Below are positions 6,765 through 11,240 of a stretch of 64,000 nt of DNA, in pieces (position 1 is the first letter of the stretch; each line of letters starts with the position of its first letter). Where the stretch lies: positions 2,852,001-2,916,000 of the forward strand of contig NZ_CP129212.1 of NCBI RefSeq assembly GCF_030413175.1, written 5' to 3'. The DNA comes from Bradyrhizobium roseum (GTDB taxonomy: Bacteria; Pseudomonadota; Alphaproteobacteria; Rhizobiales; Xanthobacteraceae). The notes under the pieces were generated by a model, which searched no databases, was not told where the DNA came from, and was given only the letters and a program-made list of their open reading frames with translations. The translations under genes and the position numbers were made by a program.

Positions 6765-7212
6765 GGTCGCTGGCGCAAGCGCGCTCGATGGCGAATTTTT
6801 TGCGCGCGATTTTCAAGCAGGCGATCGAGCAAATAGCCGTGTTGTCGGAACACATTAGCGGCGTAAAAAGTTTCGTTAACGCTGCCGGTGGCGAAGCGTC
6901 CGTTGCAAATAGTTGCTCGCTTGCCCTTGACGGACCTGGAAGTCTCGGTGCATAGGGCTGCCCCACGAAACGCCGTCGAATTCGCCGGCGCTCTTTAAGG
7001 ACCGAAACCGTGTTGCGATCACGCTCACATATCGTCGCGAAAGCTGCCGCCGCGCTGCCGTTTACTCGGCCGTGCGACTGGTCGCGCATGTCCGCGGCGG
7101 AATGCGGTCCGCGCACCCCGACGATGCCCGAATATCTCGGGACCAGCGGAATAGCAGGCAACACGTAACAGGCAGCGGGAATCCAACCTCTGCCAATCAG
7201 GCGGAGGGCAAC
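6765..7212. other. Gene-poor gap before the tRNA island
   Basis: No convincing coding frame or RNA gene is visible. Open frames here on the minus strand lack codon character. A possible promoter-like pair (TTGACG at 6927-6932 and CATAGG at 6951-6956, 18-nt spacing) precedes the small gene at 7213 and could drive it or the tRNA array; it is weak. Confidence 0.4.
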
Positions 7213-7413
7213 ATGGCCCGCAACAACACCACCAGGACAGGACTCGAGAAGCAGACCCGCGAGAGGATTTTTTCCTCGCCGGTCGCGCTTGCCTTCGTTC
7301 GCACCGTTGTGGCGCGCCGGGGCATCTCCGAGACCGAAGCCCGCCAGATCTATCTCGACTACATCAACCGGTCATGGTCGGCGGATCATTACCGCTGCAA
7401 TGACGTGAACTGA
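7213..7413 (+). CDS. Small uncharacterised protein (66 aa) at the head of the tRNA island
   Basis: The ATG at 7213 is chosen over the open frame beginning at 7072 because GGAGGG sits 5 nt upstream and the N terminus is then a compact polar stretch (MARNNTTRTGLEKQTRERIF). The product is basic at its start and ends SWSADHYRCNDVN. It has no membrane segment and no motif I recognise. The middle (SPVALAFVRTVVARRGISET, then EARQIYLDYINR) looks helical. It lies 190 nt before the first tRNA of the array, on the same strand, so it may belong to the island. Function unknown. Confidence 0.55.
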   Translation: MARNNTTRTGLEKQTRERIFSSPVALAFVRTVVARRGISETEARQIYLDYINRSWSADHYRCNDVN

Positions 7414-7523
7414 TTTCGAATACAGGACGTTCGCCCCTGCGAGGACATAAGGCGATCCGCTGACCGGTACCGGTCTCCTTTGGTGGAGCGGCAAACGGTG
7501 GTTTCAGGCAGCGATGATCTTTT

Positions 7524-7540
7524 GGCCGGGTTTTCCGGCC
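7524..7540 (+). terminator. Possible hairpin terminator after the 66-aa gene
   Basis: GGCCGG-GTTTT-CCGGCC forms a 6-bp GC stem followed by GTTTG. The T run is short, so termination is uncertain. Confidence 0.3.
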
Positions 7541-7603
7541 GTTTGTAGATTTCATGCCGGCGAAGCAATACGGACAGGTCCGATCTTCCGCCGGCACCAA
7601 TTC

Positions 7604-7680
7604 GCTCCACTGGCCCAATTGGCAGAGGCGACGGACTTAGAATCCGTGCGGTGGCGGTTCGAATCCGTCGTGGAGCACCA
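7604..7680 (+). tRNA. tRNA-Leu(UAG)-like, without long variable arm
   Basis: The acceptor stem GCTCCAC pairs with GTGGAGC; A73 and an encoded CCA follow. The anticodon stem-loop ACGGA-CTTAGAA-TCCGT gives anticodon TAG (Leu). The variable region is only 5 nt (GCGGT), whereas bacterial tRNA-Leu is class II with a long variable arm. The T arm GGCGG-TTCGAAT-CCGTC is intact. First tRNA of the array. Whether LeuRS charges it is open. Confidence 0.85.
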
Positions 7681-7690
7681 GACCCTCAAT

Positions 7691-7765
7691 GCGCGCTTAG
7701 CTCAGCGGTAGAGCGCCTGTTTTACACGCAGGATGTCGGCCGTTCGATCCGGTCAGCGCGTACCA
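7691..7765 (+). tRNA. tRNA-Val(UAC)
   Basis: The acceptor GCGCGCT/AGCGCGT, D arm GCTC...GAGC, anticodon arm CCTGT-TTTACAC-GCAGG (anticodon TAC) and T arm GGCCG-TTCGATC-CGGTC form a full cloverleaf. A73 and CCA are encoded. It lies 10 nt after the Leu-like tRNA. Confidence 0.88.
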
Positions 7766-7777
7766 AACCATCCATAT

Positions 7778-7851
7778 CCTCTCGTAGCTCAGTGGCAGAG
7801 CAATCGCTTGATAAGCGATCGACGGATGTTCGATTCATCGCGGGAGGACCA
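7778..7851 (+). tRNA. tRNA-Ile(GAU)
   Basis: The acceptor is CCTCTCG/CGGGAGG. The anticodon arm ATCGC-TTGATAA-GCGAT is perfectly paired and gives GAT (Ile). The T arm GGATG-TTCGATT-CATCG has one outer G-G mismatch. CCA is encoded. This is outside an rRNA operon, where alphaproteobacterial tRNA-Ile(GAU) normally sits. Confidence 0.8.
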
Positions 7852-7865
7852 AAGGCCAGGATGAC

Positions 7866-7948
7866 GGATCCGGAGCGTTAAACCTGAATGGAGATGGAGC
7901 GGATTTTTAACCCGTGCGCCAGTGGTTCGAAACCACCCGGATCCTCCA
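7866..7948 (+). tRNA. tRNA-Lys(UUU)-like with enlarged D region
   Basis: GGATCCG pairs with CGGATCC and TCCA follows. The anticodon loop TTTTTAA, between GCGGA and CCCGT, gives TTT (Lys). The stretch between acceptor and anticodon stem is about 26 nt instead of about 19, so the D arm is expanded or partly degraded. Anticodon-stem pair 31-39 and the outer T-stem pair are mismatched. It may be functional or decaying. Confidence 0.6.
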
Positions 7949-7956
7949 ACATGTCC

Positions 7957-7994
7957 GCGCTCGTGGCGAAACTGGTAGGCGCGCCGTCGCCTTT
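7957..7994 (+). pseudogene. 5' half of a tRNA-Leu-like gene, broken by a palindromic repeat
   Basis: GCGCTCGTGGCGAAACTGGT followed by AGGCGCGCC has the sequence and spacing of the acceptor and D arm of a tRNA-Leu. No matching 3' acceptor follows, because the palindromic element at 7995-8103 begins where the anticodon arm should be. CTTAAT and CCACCA appear after the element (about 8112-8140) and may be remnants, but they do not rebuild a cloverleaf. Confidence 0.5.
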
Positions 7995-8103
7995 CGTCAT
8001 TCCGCGGCGGGAGCGAAGCGAGCGAACCCGGAATCCAACGGGCCGCGAACGTTGTAGTGACATGGATTCCGGGTTCAGCCCTGCGGGCTGCCCCGGAATG
8101 ACG
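7995..8103. repeat. Palindromic intergenic repeat (REP/MITE-like)
   Basis: The left arm 7995-8036 begins CGTCATTCCGCGGC and ends GAACCCGGAATCC. The right arm 8064-8103 is its imperfect reverse complement (GGATTCCGGGTTC ... CCCCGGAATGACG). The whole is about 109 bp with a 27-nt centre. Elements of this sequence type are very common between genes in Bradyrhizobium and Rhodopseudomonas. This one has landed inside a tRNA gene. No clear target duplication was seen. Confidence 0.8.
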
Positions 8104-8154
8104 GAGGATAAACCTTAATTCAGTGGCGCCCACCACCAAGCAGAGGAGAGGACA

Positions 8155-8691
8155 ATGTTTGCCGCAAATCCAGCCCTTGTCCTCAACGCCGACTTCCAGC
8201 CGCTGAGCTATTTCCCGTTGTCGCTCTTCCATTGGGAAGACGCCATCAAGGCAGTGGTGAAGGGATCGCATGTCATCGTTGCGGAATACGACCAGGTGGT
8301 CCGCAGCCCGTCGACGGCGATGCGACTGCCGTCGGTCATCGCGTTGCGTGAGTACGTGCGGGCGCCGGTTCGCGTCGCCTTCACGCGGTTCAACGTTTTT
8401 CTTCGCGACCGCTTCCGTTGCCAGTACTGCGGCGACCAGCAGCTTCGGGGCGAACTGACGTTCGACCATGTCATCCCGCGTGCGGACGGCGGCCAGGCGT
8501 GCTGGACCAACATCGTGGCGGCCTGCAGTCCCTGCAACACGCGCAAGGACCGCTTCCACCTCAAGCCGCTGCGCAGGCCGTTCGAGCCGACGCGGCACGA
8601 CCTGATGGCGGCCCAGCGTCTGTTCCCGCCAAACTTTCTGCACGAGACCTGGCGGGACTATCTGTACTGGGACGTCGAACTCGAGAAGTAA
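8155..8691 (+). CDS. HNH endonuclease within the tRNA array
   Basis: The 178-residue protein has a C-terminal HNH nuclease domain. A zinc-binding pair C89-x2-C92 and C124-x2-C127 flank the beta-beta-alpha-metal core with D104-H105 (LTFDHVIPRADGG), N119 and N128. The N-terminal 80 residues (ALVLNADFQPLSYFPLSLFH) match the extended domain of a chromosomal HNH family widespread in alphaproteobacteria. GAGGAGAGG precedes the ATG. tRNA genes lie on both sides on the same strand. It could cleave DNA as a mobility or defence factor, or act on structured nucleic acid; the sequence does not decide. Confidence 0.88.
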   Translation: MFAANPALVLNADFQPLSYFPLSLFHWEDAIKAVVKGSHVIVAEYDQVVRSPSTAMRLPSVIALREYVRAPVRVAFTRFNVFLRDRFRCQYCGDQQLRGELTFDHVIPRADGGQACWTNIVAACSPCNTRKDRFHLKPLRRPFEPTRHDLMAAQRLFPPNFLHETWRDYLYWDVELEK

Positions 8692-8727
8692 CCGTGCCGG
8701 CGGCGAGGTTTTGCCGCCGGCGTCCAT

Positions 8728-8804
8728 CACCACGTAGCTCAACCGGATGAGCAGCGCGCTACGAACGCGAAGGTATGCAGGTTCGAGTCCTGCCGGGCAG
8801 GCCA
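8728..8804 (+). tRNA. tRNA-Arg(ACG)-like, acceptor stem poorly paired
   Basis: The D arm GCTCAACCGGATGAGC, anticodon arm with loop CTACGAA (anticodon ACG) and T arm GCAGG-TTCGAGT-CCTGC are good. The 3' strand CGGGCAG does not pair well with the 5' CACCACG; only about four of seven pairs form. This suggests a degenerate gene or one needing correction. G73 and CCA are encoded. Confidence 0.6.
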
Positions 8805-8810
8805 ATTCAT

Positions 8811-8889
8811 CTGGGTGTAGGGGAGCCTGGTCGTCCCCGCCGGCCTTGGAAGCTGGAGACCGCTGGTTCAAATCCAGCCACCTAGACCA
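8811..8889 (+). tRNA. tRNA-Pro(UGG)
   Basis: The acceptor is CTGGGTG/CACCTAG, the D stem GGGG...CCCC, the anticodon arm CCGGC-CTTGGAA-GCTGG (anticodon TGG) and the T arm GCTGG-TTCAAAT-CCAGC. A73 and CCA are encoded. It lies 6 nt after tRNA-Arg and 83 nt before rtcB. Confidence 0.85.
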
Positions 8890-8972
8890 GTTTTGCCGTT
8901 GATGGTGCCAGCAGACGCCCGACGGTCGAAGACGAGCGCGTACAAATGTTCTGCGTACCGATGGAGGAACCG

Positions 8973-10310
8973 ATGCGATCAGATCCATATCAGGAGCGAG
9001 CCCGTCAACTGGCGATCGAAGCCGGCGTCGATCCGGATTCCCGTGTCGGTGAGGGCCGCGGACAGCCGGCCTGGTGCCTTTACCGCGACGCCGCCCGCAA
9101 GGAACATCTGGCGCGCGAAACCGACGCGGCCGCTGCCGATATCGTCAACCTGCGTCCGCAGGACGAGCGGTACAAGAATTCGCCTCTCAAGATCTTTGGC
9201 CAGCACGAGGACGTCACCGTGGCGCAGATGCGCAATTGCATGTCGGTCGGCAATGTCGTCGCCGGCGTGATCTGTGCCGATGGTCATCTGGGCTACGCCC
9301 AGCCGGTCGGCGGCGTAATCGCCTATGAGAAGCAGGTCAGCATCTCCGGCGTCGGCTTCGATATCGGATGCGGCAATATGGCGGTTCGGCTTGATACGCC
9401 CTTCAGCGCGATCGAGGGCCGCGTCGGTGAGATCATCCACGACGTTCAGAAGGTGATCTCGTTTGGTGTCGGCCGCACAAACGACGAGCGCGTCGAGCAT
9501 GAACTGTTCGATGACGGCGACGCATGGCGGGAATCCGACATGGGCGCTTACCGGCAGAAAGCGGTCAGCCAACTCGGCACGGTCGGATCCGGCAATCACT
9601 ACGTCGATCTCATGCGTGACGAGGCCGGCCTTGTCTGGATAGGCGTCCACTTCGGCAGCCGCGGGCTGGGTCACACCAGCGCGACTCGCTATCTCAAGGC
9701 TGCCGGCGGCAAGGACGGCATGAACGTCCCGCCGGCGGTGGTCGACGAGGATAGCGAGCTTGGCCGGCGATACATCGCTGCGATGGAATTGGCCGGTCGC
9801 TACTCCTATGCCGGCCGTAAATGGGTCGTCGAGCGCGTCCGCAAGATCATCGGCGGCGCCGTCACCGACATGGTGCACAACCACCACAACTATGCATGGC
9901 GGGAGAACCATGGAGGCCGGGACCTCTGGGTGGTGCGGAAGGGTGCGACCCCCGCATTCCCCGGTCAGCGGGGCTTTGTCGGCGGCTCGATGGGCGATGA
10001 TGCCGTCATCCTCGAGGGTGTCGATAGCGCGGAAGCGCGGGCGTCGCTTTACTCGACGGTGCATGGCGCGGGCCGCCTGTTCGGCCGAAAGGAGGCCAAG
10101 CGCCGCTTCACCCGTGCCGAGATGGATGCGTGGCTCCAGCAGCGCGGAGTCACGCTGGTGGGCGCTGACCTCGACGAAAGTCCGATGGCCTACCGTCGCC
10201 TTCCGGAGGTGCTGGCGCAGCATGCCGGCAGCGTGAAGGTGCTGCATACGCTGCGGCCTTTCGCGGTGGCGATGGCCGGCGAGGGTGAGTTCGATCCATT
10301 CAAGGACTGA
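8973..10310 (+). CDS. rtcB: RtcB-family RNA-splicing ligase within the tRNA array
   Basis: RtcB joins RNA 2',3'-cyclic phosphate (or 3'-phosphate) ends to 5'-OH ends using GTP and Mn2+; it repairs or splices tRNA and other RNAs. This 445-residue protein shows GVGFDIGCGN with the metal ligands D130 and C133, GTVGSGNHYVDL, VHFGSRGLGH, DMVHNHHNYA, and VHGAGR with H364, which corresponds to the GMP-accepting histidine. The ATG at 8973 is preferred to the in-frame ATG at 8946 because GGAGGAA lies 3-4 nt upstream. No archease gene or RtcR-type sigma-54 activator is next to it, unlike classical rtcBA operons. tRNA genes flank it on both sides, which points to tRNA as its substrate (inference). Confidence 0.93.
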   Translation: MRSDPYQERARQLAIEAGVDPDSRVGEGRGQPAWCLYRDAARKEHLARETDAAAADIVNLRPQDERYKNSPLKIFGQHEDVTVAQMRNCMSVGNVVAGVICADGHLGYAQPVGGVIAYEKQVSISGVGFDIGCGNMAVRLDTPFSAIEGRVGEIIHDVQKVISFGVGRTNDERVEHELFDDGDAWRESDMGAYRQKAVSQLGTVGSGNHYVDLMRDEAGLVWIGVHFGSRGLGHTSATRYLKAAGGKDGMNVPPAVVDEDSELGRRYIAAMELAGRYSYAGRKWVVERVRKIIGGAVTDMVHNHHNYAWRENHGGRDLWVVRKGATPAFPGQRGFVGGSMGDDAVILEGVDSAEARASLYSTVHGAGRLFGRKEAKRRFTRAEMDAWLQQRGVTLVGADLDESPMAYRRLPEVLAQHAGSVKVLHTLRPFAVAMAGEGEFDPFKD

Positions 10311-10314
10311 GCGG

Positions 10315-10332
10315 CGGGGCGCACGCGCCCCG
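10315..10332 (+). terminator. GC hairpin after rtcB
   Basis: CGGGGCGC-AC-GCGCCCCG is a perfect 8-bp stem 5 nt after the rtcB stop. No T tract follows. It may separate the mRNA from the downstream tRNA transcript or serve as a processing site. Confidence 0.4.
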
Positions 10333-10340
10333 TCTGCCGA

Positions 10341-10417
10341 TGCCTCTTGGCTCAGTTGGTCAGAGCGCCGTCCTCTGAAGGGGGATGTCCCCGGTTCGAG
10401 TCCGGGAGAGGCTGCCA
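10341..10417 (+). tRNA. tRNA-Gln(CUG)
   Basis: The acceptor TGCCTCT/AGAGGCT has an open U1-U72 end, similar to the weak first pair typical of tRNA-Gln. The D arm is GCTC...GAGC, the anticodon loop CTCTGAA gives CTG, and the T arm is CCCGG-TTCGAGT-CCGGG. G73 and CCA are encoded. The anticodon stem has one G-G mismatch. Confidence 0.8.
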
Positions 10418-10422
10418 ATACT

Positions 10423-10496
10423 GGCGAGAGACCCAGGCGGCCAGGGTACGGTCTGCAAAACCGGACAGGCGGGTTCGACTCCCGTTCTCGCTTCCA
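10423..10496 (+). tRNA. tRNA-Cys(GCA)
   Basis: The acceptor GGCGAGA/TCTCGCT is followed by U73, the Cys identity base, and CCA. The anticodon arm ACGGT-CTGCAAA-ACCGG gives GCA, and the T arm is GCGGG-TTCGACT-CCCGT. It lies 5 nt after tRNA-Gln. Confidence 0.85.
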
Positions 10497-10497
10497 T

Positions 10498-10573
10498 GCG
10501 TTCGCGGACCAACTGGAGGGTCAGCCGTCTTCCAAACGGCCCCATGCTGGTTCGAGTCCAGACGAGCGCGCCA
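10498..10573 (+). tRNA. tRNA-Gly(UCC), first copy, with G73
   Basis: The acceptor GCGTTCG/CGAGCGC, D arm GACC...GGTC and perfect anticodon arm GCCGT-CTTCCAA-ACGGC (anticodon TCC) make a good cloverleaf. The discriminator is G, whereas bacterial GlyRS generally expects U73. Only 1 nt separates it from tRNA-Cys. Confidence 0.82.
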
Positions 10574-10581
10574 TTTGAACT

Positions 10582-10668
10582 GGAGAGTTGGCCGAGCGGC
10601 AAGGCAACGCGGTGCTAACGCGTCGAGTCCTTCGGGACGCACAGGTTCGATCCCTGTACTCTCCGCCA
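10582..10668 (+). tRNA. tRNA-Ser(GCU)
   Basis: A class II tRNA: the acceptor is GGAGAGT/ACTCTCC with G73 and CCA. The anticodon arm ACGCG-GTGCTAA-CGCGT gives GCT. The long variable arm GAGTCC-TTC-GGGACGC is present, and the T arm is ACAGG-TTCGATC-CCTGT. This is the most canonical member of the array. Confidence 0.92.
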
Positions 10669-10780
10669 TCGTGCGAAAGCGGGATGATCCGATCGCGATC
10701 GATCGGATGCTGCAAGAAGGATAGCGCCGGCCAGCCGCTGGAACGGTGCCTCCGTCTTCCATTGCGGCTGTTCCAATCTT

Positions 10781-10855
10781 GCGGGCGTGGCGTAGTGGGC
10801 TGCGTGCCTGTCTTCCAAAGAGGAGGTGCCGGTTCGATCCCGGCCGCCCGCGCCA
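10781..10855 (+). tRNA. tRNA-Gly(UCC), second copy, with G73
   Basis: The acceptor GCGGGCG/CGCCCGC is perfect. The anticodon arm CCTGT-CTTCCAA-AGAGG has one mismatch and gives TCC; the T arm is GCCGG-TTCGATC-CCGGC. Again G73 instead of U73, with CCA encoded. It differs from the first Gly copy in most stems, so it is not a recent duplicate. The 112 nt before it hold no clear gene. Confidence 0.8.
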
Positions 10856-10856
10856 G

Positions 10857-10934
10857 CCTGCCATCGCCTAGAGCCAAAGGGTACGGCGCTTTCAACGCCG
10901 GACGTCGCGGGTTGAACTCCCGCTGGCAGGACCA
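10857..10934 (+). tRNA. tRNA-Glu(UUC), with A73 and altered T loop
   Basis: The acceptor is CCTGCCA/TGGCAGG, and the anticodon arm CGGCG-CTTTCAA-CGCCG gives TTC. The T stem GCGGG/CCCGC encloses TTGAACT; the usual TTC at loop positions 54-56 is TTG, which would remove the conserved C56 contact with the D loop. The discriminator is A instead of the usual G. It lies 1 nt after the preceding tRNA-Gly. Confidence 0.78.
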
Positions 10935-10944
10935 GTTGTTTTTC

Positions 10945-11019
10945 CGCGGGGCCTCGGCAGGGAAGGGGTCGGCTCTCATAAGGCCGGCGTGGCGGGTTCG
11001 ACCCCCGCACCCGCGACCA
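10945..11019 (+). tRNA. tRNA with CAU anticodon (elongator Met or Ile2)
   Basis: The acceptor CGCGGGG/ACCCGCG has a mismatch at the inner pair. The anticodon arm CGGCT-CTCATAA-GGCCG gives CAT. The three G-C pairs that mark initiator tRNA are absent, so it is elongator Met or, if TilS acts on it, Ile2. T arm GCGGG-TTCGACC-CCCGC; A73; CCA encoded. Confidence 0.8.
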
Positions 11020-11023
11020 ATCT

Positions 11024-11098
11024 CCTGACTTCGTTCAATGGCAGGACGCCCGGTTGTGGACCGGGAGACGCGGAGTTCGATTCTCCCGGTCAGGACCA
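11024..11098 (+). tRNA. tRNA-His(GUG)
   Basis: The acceptor is CCTGACT/GGTCAGG, the D arm GTTC...GGAC, and the anticodon arm CCCGG-TTGTGGA-CCGGG gives GTG. There is A73 and no templated G-1; some alphaproteobacteria are known to use tRNA-His of this kind. CCA is encoded. Confidence 0.85.
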
Positions 11099-11101
11099 GA
11101 T

Positions 11102-11176
11102 ACCGGCTTAGTTCAGTGGCAGAACGCGGGCCTCCAAAACCCGATGTCGACTGTTCGATTCAGTCAGCCGGTGCCA
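11102..11176 (+). tRNA. tRNA-Trp(CCA)
   Basis: The acceptor ACCGGCT/AGCCGGT carries G73, the usual Trp discriminator. The D arm is GTTC...GAAC, the anticodon loop CTCCAAA gives CCA, and the T arm is GACTG-TTCGATT-CAGTC. The 3' CCA is encoded. Last tRNA of the array, 3 nt after tRNA-His. Confidence 0.87.
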
Positions 11177-11240
11177 GGATCAGGTGGTTACAAAATATGC
11201 AGGTGGACCCAAAAAGAGAGCAGTTGGCGCTCCGTGGTGC

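Follow-up and report, generated by a model that had tools for sequence, protein, structure and literature searches.

Arrays of tRNA genes that carry an HNH endonuclease gene are already known. A tRNA array unit, as defined by Tran et al. 2016, has at least 20 tRNA genes at a density of at least 2 per kb, and an HNH gene is common in such units without being required (PMC5966550). The trn operon of Anabaena sp. PCC 7120 is a silent tRNA array that is induced by translation stress; it is controlled by the RHH repressor TrcR, whose regulon includes rtcB, and deletion of TrcR also raises rtcB and the HNH gene all8564 (PMC10272220). The RNA ligase RtcB has been tied to cut tRNAs in Salmonella, where its gene belongs to the rsr-yrlBA-rtcBA operon, with YrlA, Rsr and, as activator, the CARF-domain protein RtcR (PMC7790460). 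Finally, phages can carry anti-nuclease tRNAs, spares with altered anticodon loops, and some of these phages also have an RNA ligase (PMC10264068).

The locus described here lies in a window of 64,000 nucleotides, the whole stretch of DNA analysed, from Bradyrhizobium roseum. Like the Anabaena trn operon it is long, its tRNAs are redundant, and an HNH gene and rtcB are associated with it; however, the Anabaena rtcB (all3526) is chromosomal and apart from the plasmid-borne trn operon, whereas the rtcB of the window is inside the array, the head protein here is predicted to be all-helical and gave no RHH family match, and the small ORF, pseudoknot leader and hairpin switch found here do not appear in the cited account of the trn operon (PMC10272220). 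It resembles the units of Mycobacterium and of its plasmids and phages in its dense, redundant and divergent tRNAs, its HNH gene and its link to mobile DNA, but the word rtcB is absent from the main text of the two reports cited on the Mycobacterium arrays (PMC5966550, PMC12803027), and the tRNA order of a Mycobacterium-type array (L210) differs from that of the window. Spare tRNAs with altered loops and an RNA ligase recall the phage systems, and in contrast with the tRNA ligase system of phage T4 we find a bacterial chromosome, RtcB and a structured leader (PMC10264068). RtcB is also what the locus shares with the Salmonella operon, yet its neighbours here are tRNA genes (PMC7790460); neither rtcA nor RtcR lies beside it, the flanks being the tRNA-Pro that ends at 8889 and the tRNA that starts at 10341.

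Results

Extent and conservation of the module

The locus is a shrunken, partly decayed copy of a travelling, conserved spare-tRNA cassette with an RNA-repair ligase inside (Table 1). The true unit exceeds the region 7213..11176 that was first noted: blastn homology begins at 6816-6832 in the 8 closest arrays and stops at exactly 11176, the last base of the tRNA-Trp CCA, in the 8 arrays with an aligned tRNA-Trp. With array L249, which occupies the same site as the window's, homology picks up again at 11180.

The array HNH gene is present in 35 of 265 Bradyrhizobium genomes. In each of the 34 array-HNH loci elsewhere in the genus a homologue of the small ORF precedes it, and at least 7 tRNAs surround it in 24 of them. 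These arrays span from 33 tRNAs, in largely one order, down to none; ten eroded loci have lost nearly all tRNAs and kept the small ORF and HNH, eight of them also with rtcB. A largely fixed tRNA order with HNH was likewise found in the 9 best of 62 HNH loci from IMG/VR, with 18-37 tRNAs each in records of 90-132 kb. The clustering of these tRNAs is not due to chance, since many genomes repeat it in largely the same order. Identity to 8 close arrays is 95% for the leader RNA, 92% for the tRNAs, 88% for HNH, 87% for the small ORF and 80% for the spacers. Of the 16 tRNA units of this array, a repeat has halved one and another three have decayed, so that this copy may be dying.

Table 1. Features of the module in the window.
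Feature	Positions	Strand	Evidence
Whole module	6816..11176	+	blastn homology with arrays at other genomic sites
Promoter-like CTTGACG-N16-TGCATA	6926..6954	+	conserved in aligned arrays; putative promoter
Three-strand hairpin, putative switch	7171..7208	+	covariation across leaders
Small ORF, 66 aa, without known family	7213..7413	+	homologues ahead of HNH in other arrays
Structured leader RNA with H-type pseudoknot, ~95 nt	7423..7513	+	covariation, 26 sequences
Terminator-like hairpin GGCCGG-GTTTT-CCGGCC	7524..7540	+	conserved in A3; putative terminator
tRNA-Leu(tag)	7604..7680	+	ARAGORN
tRNA-Val(tac)	7691..7765	+	ARAGORN
tRNA-Ile(gat)	7778..7851	+	ARAGORN; compensatory stem changes
tRNA-Lys, decayed, limits approximate	~7866..7949	+	similarity to array tRNAs
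tRNA-Leu(gag), 5' half, cut by repeat	7957..7988	+	31/32 bases match L247
MITE-like dispersed palindromic repeat, took the place of part of the array	7990..8112		72 own-genome matches (one place may match on both strands)
tRNA-Met(cat), 19-nt 3' end	8117..8135	+	array comparison
HNH endonuclease gene, 178 aa	8155..8691	+	PF14279 and PF01844; phrog_16726
tRNA-Arg(acg), decayed, acceptor stem broken	8728..8804	+	97% to L251 over 72 nt
tRNA-Pro(tgg)	8811..8889	+	ARAGORN
rtcB, RNA ligase, 454 aa, intact	8946..10310	+	PF01139, phrog_1075, solved RtcB relatives
tRNA-Gln(ctg)	10341..10417	+	position and similarity; ARAGORN reads Phe(gaa)
tRNA-Cys(gca)	10423..10496	+	ARAGORN
Arg(tct)-type tRNA, anticodon reading TCC	10498..10573	+	92% to L251
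tRNA-Ser(gct)	10582..10668	+	ARAGORN
tRNA-Gly(tcc)	10781..10855	+	ARAGORN
tRNA-Glu(ttc)	10857..10934	+	ARAGORN
tRNA-Met(cat), decayed	~10945..11020	+	array comparison
tRNA-His(gtg)	11024..11098	+	ARAGORN
tRNA-Trp(cca), last gene, module right end	11102..11176	+	ARAGORN and blastn array homology

tRNA genes

As the earlier note had observed, the tRNA genes are all on one strand, from 7604 to 11176, with gaps down to 1 nt (10496/10498 and 10855/10857) and with HNH and rtcB placed between them. The 17 tRNA genes that it counted become 12 well-formed genes in ARAGORN, or 15 with three decayed ones (Lys, Arg(acg) and Met(cat)); there are also two fragments, the Leu(gag) 5' half and a Met 3' end. 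Its 14 amino-acid types are reached if decayed genes are counted. The Rfam tRNA model gave 11 sites over threshold in one run and 12 in another; compared with ARAGORN, the 11-site run gained 8733-8795 and missed 10423 and 10498. Two ARAGORN readings are doubtful: 'Phe(gaa)' at 10342-10413, whose position and best match (82%) are those of the array's Gln(ctg), and 'Gly(tcc)' at 10498-10573, which is a gene of Arg(tct) type. CCA is encoded in all 12 ARAGORN tRNAs, but it is no special trait, as it is also encoded in each of the 46 other complete tRNA genes that were read in the genome. With 12 genes in 3.57 kb (3.4 per kb) the array has the density of a Tran et al. 2016 unit and, as is common in such units, an HNH gene; its tRNA number, even at 15, is under their minimum of 20, and related arrays have up to 33 in the genus and up to 37 in IMG/VR.

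Comparison with the chromosomal set, which had been proposed as a check, revealed that the array tRNAs are not sole isoacceptor copies: each array anticodon is also present among the 46 other tRNA genes. The array tRNA-Ile has compensatory stem changes, with double changes in 5 pairs. The commonest array discriminator base equals the housekeeping base in 33 of 37 isoacceptor types; it often differs in the Gly, Lys(ctt) and Glu(ttc) tRNAs, and some array tRNAs may consequently not be charged. Identity between array tRNAs and host isoacceptors is 58% in the acceptor stem, 45% in the anticodon stem and 61% in the T stem, and anticodon-loop positions 32, 37 and 38 often differ.

Leader region

The earlier description lacked the leader, made up of the promoter-like element, the putative switch hairpin, the small ORF and the pseudoknot RNA. 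That RNA is better conserved than any other part of the module, the tRNAs included. This leader, with its structured RNA and small protein family, is undescribed. In all 16 aligned arrays the promoter-like element has an identical CTTGACG and retains GCATA. The putative switch comprises strands A (GGCAG, 7171-7175), B (CCTCTGCC, 7187-7194) and C (GGCGGAGGG, 7200-7208); B is able to pair with A or with C, and C contains the Shine-Dalgarno sequence of the small ORF. At the covarying position the letters are compatible in 41 of 41 leaders, 7 of these judged by eye. The small ORF has 270 homologues, with a Pfam domain in none among the matches listed, and its own protein gave no Pfam match over cut-off, RHH families included. 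A paralogous small ORF has 43-46% identity.

In the leader RNA the pseudoknot is formed by P1 (7423-7426/7436-7439) and P2 (7429-7435/7451-7457), followed by P3 (7458-7462/7509-7513) and P4 (7475-7478/7485-7488). Over 26 sequences 99.5% of cells are paired and both sides have changed in 34 cells; the window's copy has one U-U mismatch, in P2. This RNA is present in 24 of 25 non-eroded arrays. It also precedes the first tRNA in two distant arrays, L150 (E=4.3e-5) and G307, the latter from another genus (E=1.5e-8); the search gave no copy of it in four further arrays, L069, L125, L149 and L151. A search of 7413-7556 with covariance models of 4227 Rfam families gave no match at E<=1. Fifteen exact copies of a palindrome of the GGCCGG-hairpin kind occur in the genome.

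HNH and rtcB genes

Across the 35 genomes the array HNH is 75-100% identical and holds one place in the tRNA order, so in Bradyrhizobium-type arrays it looks like a fixed component; the suggestion that it mobilises the cluster finds no support in this. Throughout the genus there are relatives of about 61%, and 263 of 265 genomes have some match; a Nostoc plasmid array with 20 tRNAs (L211) has a related HNH (37%) at its head.

The RtcB translation scores 220.6 bits against PF01139 (family cut-off 27) and contains, read by eye, DIGCG, GNH, HFGSRGLGH, HNHH and HGAGR, which we take to be the metal and guanylate ligand motifs of RtcB (Asp, Cys, Asn-His and three His). Scored per genome on 6 first-look candidates, rtcB is present in 26 of 35 array genomes and in 82 of 230 others (Fisher p=2.7e-5, kinship ignored); without the 10 eroded loci the figure is 18 of 25 (p=8e-4). 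The stretches fetched around the 24 non-eroded other arrays of the genus, some on truncated contigs, contained no rtcB, and neither did the 9 IMG/VR array records. Of 77 rtcB loci that lack a large array, 51 have relics of array-type tRNAs next to the gene; 88 relics share its strand and 5 lie on the opposite one, and most of the relics are weak and shared by descent. These relics beside standalone rtcB genes suggest that rtcB long rode in tRNA arrays; the array-linked RtcBs are not one clade. The proposed tRNA reserve fits the redundancy of the tRNAs, the compensatory changes in tRNA-Ile, the mostly kept discriminators and the Anabaena parallel. The proposed link with rtcB is supported by co-occurrence and relics, but most arrays lack rtcB in the fetched stretch. 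The window's rtcB is the only full-length copy found in the genome, which agrees with one part of the second outcome that the earlier note had named as speaking against its proposal.

Discussion

We lean towards a reserve-tRNA cassette that is inducible, carries a repair ligase and works like Anabaena's silent trn operon; it was probably spread by phage and is partly decayed here. The promoter near 6926 would drive one long transcript of leader, 66-aa ORF, pseudoknot RNA, hairpin, tRNAs, HNH and RtcB. Under favourable conditions the leader would hold array expression low; upon translation failure, when tRNAs are cut or scarce, it would let transcription or processing of the array continue, the spare, sequence-divergent tRNAs would stand in for lost ones, and RtcB would rejoin cut tRNAs.

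The array might instead be phage cargo that serves prophages against host anticodon nucleases, with tRNAs that resist cutting or take the place of cut ones, the chromosomal copies, including the window's, being stranded relics of little import for the host; we regard this as possible, though rather unlikely. The module ends on the right with a tRNA 3' end, a common site of phage integration, two array flanks contain a phage-type DNA ligase, and in the 9 IMG/VR array records an integrase is over cut-off in one and below it in two. However, terminase is over cut-off in none of the nine, and their viral label therefore rests on IMG/VR. Array tRNAs are unlike host isoacceptors throughout, often at the three loop positions given above, and altered anticodon loops have been argued to protect phage tRNAs (PMC10264068), but the divergence is general and not centred on the anticodon arm. 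Several arrays are also located among ordinary metabolic genes, and chromosomal copies show strong conservation of the leader.

Decay could have gone so far that this genome has no more use for the tRNAs and keeps rtcB alone, for general RNA repair. The decayed and cut tRNAs and the repeat insertion in the window, the ten eroded loci and the standalone rtcB genes with tRNA relics fit such a course; we nevertheless judge it improbable, with 12 tRNAs still well formed and with leader RNA and tRNAs closer to other arrays than the spacers are. It would be most surprising if the array boosted translation capacity or suited codon use, unconnected with tRNA damage: anticodons and mostly discriminators are kept, but all anticodons are already in the genome, rtcB is linked to the arrays, and the structured leader suggests conditional use. 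Hardly more credible is a homing HNH that carries or reshuffles the cluster, as the term applied to the nucleases of mycobacterial arrays would have it (PMC5966550), given its fixed place, its high identity and its genus-wide relatives.

Within the inducible cassette that we favour, the leader may, as a tentative and rather doubtful proposal, sense translation failure by itself: where ribosomes stall on the switch and small ORF, or are missing from them, the pseudoknot would refold and the terminator-like hairpin open, and a shortage of charged tRNAs would thereby directly release a complete set of divergent spare tRNAs together with RtcB. If true, this would add a new class of tRNA-supply attenuators, governing a whole decoding set and not one amino-acid operon. 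The locus offers a handle on the purpose and switching of bacterial and phage tRNA arrays: its small leader lends itself to mutation at single bases, and soil bacteria provide a graded set of natural arrays that runs from 33 tRNAs to zero, some with rtcB and some lacking it. Should the leader prove to be a switch, damage to tRNAs, their replacement and the repair of RNA would be joined in one testable unit.

Results

Content of the cassette

The window sits at 2,852,001-2,916,000 within a 7.32-Mb genome assembled as a single contig, whose closest relatives with a name belong to Bradyrhizobium. Beyond the ARAGORN calls, comparison with 760 ARAGORN-called tRNAs from 46 related loci revealed three decayed genes (Lys, Arg(acg), Met(cat)) and two remnants, the 5' half of Leu(gag) and a Met 3' end. 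Leu(gag) is cut where a 123-bp palindromic repeat sits, which is matched 72 times in the same genome (a single place may match both strands). Beyond the cut, the remainder of Leu(gag), Asp, Pro(cgg) and most of Met, present in relatives, have been lost. By the numeric definition of a tRNA array unit, 20 tRNAs (Tran et al. 2016, as quoted in PMC5966550), the window copy falls short and so is itself no such unit, while relatives qualify; having lost part of its tRNAs, it may be waning. A C-terminal rtcB fragment lies at 5.067 Mb. The Arg-type tRNA with a glycine anticodon would, if charged with arginine, misread GGA.

Features of the cassette, in window coordinates
Feature	Position	Strand	Remark
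Whole module	6816-11176	+
Promoter-like CTTGACG...TGCATA	6926	+	kept in 16/16 aligned arrays
Putative three-strand switch	7171-7208	+	directly ahead of small ORF
Small ORF	7213-7413	+	66 aa
Structured leader RNA	7423-7513	+	helices P1-P4
GGCCGG hairpin	7524-7540	+	after leader RNA
tRNA genes	7604-11176	+	12 genes (ARAGORN)
tRNA-Leu(tag)	7604-7680	+	A37
HNH gene	8155-8691	+	178 aa, family match
tRNA-Pro(tgg)	8811-8889	+	A37
rtcB	8946-10310	+	454 aa, family match; only full-length copy found in genome
Arg-type tRNA	10498-10573	+	TCC (Gly) anticodon, G73

A conserved module at varying sites

The array HNH (75-100% identity) occurs in at least 35 of 265 genomes of the genus, the window genome counted; some HNH match was found in 263 of them, mostly a relative of about 61% among the matches listed. 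The 34 other array-HNH loci that we fetched comprise 24 with at least 7 tRNAs and 10 eroded loci with 0-2 (named strains: BTAi1, STM 3809, SSBR45G, SRS-191 and B. aeschynomenes). A homologue of the small ORF precedes HNH in all 34; the eroded loci retain both, and 8 of these 10 have rtcB (83-86%) downstream. In IMG/VR, the best 9 of 62 HNH loci carry 18-37 tRNAs each in largely shared order, and the remaining 53 carry 0-6.

Homology to arrays at other sites starts at 6816-6832 in the closest 8 loci and stops at 11176, exactly where tRNA-Trp ends, in the 8 loci that align over this gene. Two loci (L249 and L273) occupy the same genomic site as the window; among the loci scanned the neighbours vary (dehydrogenases, a NUDIX gene, a response regulator or a TctC gene), and a phage-type DNA ligase adjoins the array in two further loci. 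One 11-tRNA array (L333) has leader and small ORF with no HNH detected, and is interrupted by ORFs, transposases as read by eye. At plasmid loci L205, L207 and L215, in Rhizobium, Sphingomonas and Sinorhizobium, an HNH relative (55-60%) with no array stands near gluQRS, which constitutes a second tRNA-linked setting.

The leader

The strands GGCAG, CCTCTGCC (middle) and GGCGGAGGG (third) can form two mutually exclusive hairpins, one of which conceals the Shine-Dalgarno sequence. Of the 41 leaders compared (34 distinct), 17 have T in the middle strand, always with A in the first strand, and 24 have C, which faces G in 17; in the other 7 the search pattern matched GCAG, with GGCGG directly ahead as read by eye. 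The third strand keeps pairing or wobble in every leader.

An RNA of about 95 nt follows the stop of the small ORF. In 26 distinct sequences its structure, which includes an H-type pseudoknot, is paired in 99.5% of cells, compared with 34-50% when slid, and 34 cells are changed on both sides, P1 contributing 8 and three pairs of P2 contributing 6 each; P3 is invariant and thus outside this covariation test, and the window's own P2 has a single U-U mismatch. The observed values for paired cells, both-side changes and covariation score were attained in none of 500 shuffles, that for double-change pairs in 75 and that for pair types in 498. No Rfam family matched at E<=1. With nhmmer, 24 of 25 non-eroded arrays, that of the window among them, yielded the RNA; the 10 eroded loci yielded none. 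A covariance model placed it before the first tRNA in two further arrays: the distant L150 (E=4.3e-5), and one from another genus (E=1.5e-8) that has 23 tRNAs, an HNH of 59.5% and no small ORF detected; the model gave none in L065 (contig cut), L069, L125, L149 or L151. Against 8 close arrays, the leader RNA is 95% identical, tRNAs 92% (78% aligned), HNH 88%, the small ORF 87%, the upstream region 83% and spacers 80% (67% aligned). The GGCCGG hairpin resembles a palindrome with 15 exact genome copies, which also stands behind several ORFs; the hairpin is a putative terminator.

At L311-L313, L330, L331 and L334, where tRNAs are absent nearby, the leader RNA has weak paralogues (E 4e-7 to 4e-5); a small-ORF relative (43-46%) precedes them in 3 of 4 genomes, and a large ORF lies downstream in L331. 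The pair of small ORF and leader RNA may therefore control other genes too.

The tRNAs are redundant and divergent

The earlier note had proposed that these tRNAs are spares, and the chromosomal set fits this: 46 complete tRNA genes elsewhere in the genome, all with CCA, cover every array anticodon, so that none is the sole bearer of its own. Across arrays, for isoacceptor types with at least 4 copies, the commonest discriminator base is the housekeeping one in 33 of 37 types, the others being Gly(gcc), Gly(tcc), Lys(ctt) and Glu(ttc). Parsing and matching succeeded for 340 of 760 library tRNAs (420 were dropped). In these, identity to the housekeeping isoacceptor, against that between unrelated housekeeping tRNAs, is 58% versus 44% in the acceptor stem, 45% versus 34% in the anticodon stem and 61% versus 53% in the T stem. 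Divergence is general, and the anticodon arm is not its centre. In array tRNA-Ile (15 of 17 loci found, 8 distinct rows), 5 pairs have both sides changed and pairing holds in 92.9% of cells, compared with 33-44% when slid; the observed values for paired cells, double-change cells and covariation score were attained in 0 of 500 shuffles, that for double-change pairs in 179 and that for pair types in 396. Together, this divergence and covariation make the array tRNAs look old, separate and held to shape, and recent copying unlikely. Array Leu(tag) and Pro(tgg) carry A37; their housekeeping counterparts carry G37, a position usually modified to m1G37.

Discussion

rtcB (E<1e-100), scored on 6 candidates per genome, is present in 108 of 265 genomes, a few copies being split or partial. 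It occurs in 26 of 35 genomes with the array HNH versus 82 of 230 without (p=2.7e-5, in a test that ignores kinship). It was absent from the regions retrieved around the 24 further non-eroded arrays of the genus, where some contigs are cut short, and from 9 viral array records. Arrays were found at 3 of 80 rtcB loci taken from genome contigs: L065 (5 tRNAs, short contig), L069 (24) and L125 (25). Array-type tRNA relics occur in 51 of the remaining 77, 88 on the rtcB strand and 5 opposite, a count in which many are weak and shared by descent and whose library includes tRNA-like genes from eroded loci. A good Cys(gca) lies 27-105 nt behind rtcB in five loci, and the window's own Cys stands near the equivalent spot. 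In the RtcB tree the four array-linked proteins form four separate branches, and the window's RtcB branches outside a supported clade (100/95) that joins 44 standalone RtcBs with L065 and L069, its exact placement being weakly supported. Repeated capture of rtcB by arrays is the alternative account; we read these data as rtcB having long been carried in arrays and then outlived them.

In L299 (5,063,000-5,069,500 of the window genome) and in L063, L064, L066, L067, L113, L116, L120 and L122, rtcB or what remains of it is followed at 1.9-4.1 kb by two tandem tRNA-like genes. Among the pairs inspected, the first has no proper anticodon loop and the second no acceptor stem; a Band 7/SPFH gene follows them in L066, and a distant second RtcB (~30%) lies near them in some genomes. 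These pairs resemble tRNA mimics associated with RNA repair.

tRNA arrays with HNH are already known, as is co-regulation of rtcB with a tRNA operon in Anabaena; our searches found no precedent for the leader, its small protein or rtcB within an array. The Anabaena trn operon is reported to stay silent unless translation is inhibited; TrcR, which represses it, represses rtcB as well, TrcR deletion raises the HNH gene all8564, and trn expression is reported to favour survival under translation-inhibiting antibiotics (PMC10272220). It has been proposed that phage tRNAs stand in for tRNAs that anticodon nucleases have cut, assisted in some phages by RNA ligases (PMC10264068). The window genome has three PIN-domain genes (VapC fold), whose products are possible tRNA cutters. 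By analogy with the trn operon and phage tRNAs, the cassette is probably a reserve that the leader would release when translation fails, with RtcB mending whatever tRNA is mendable.
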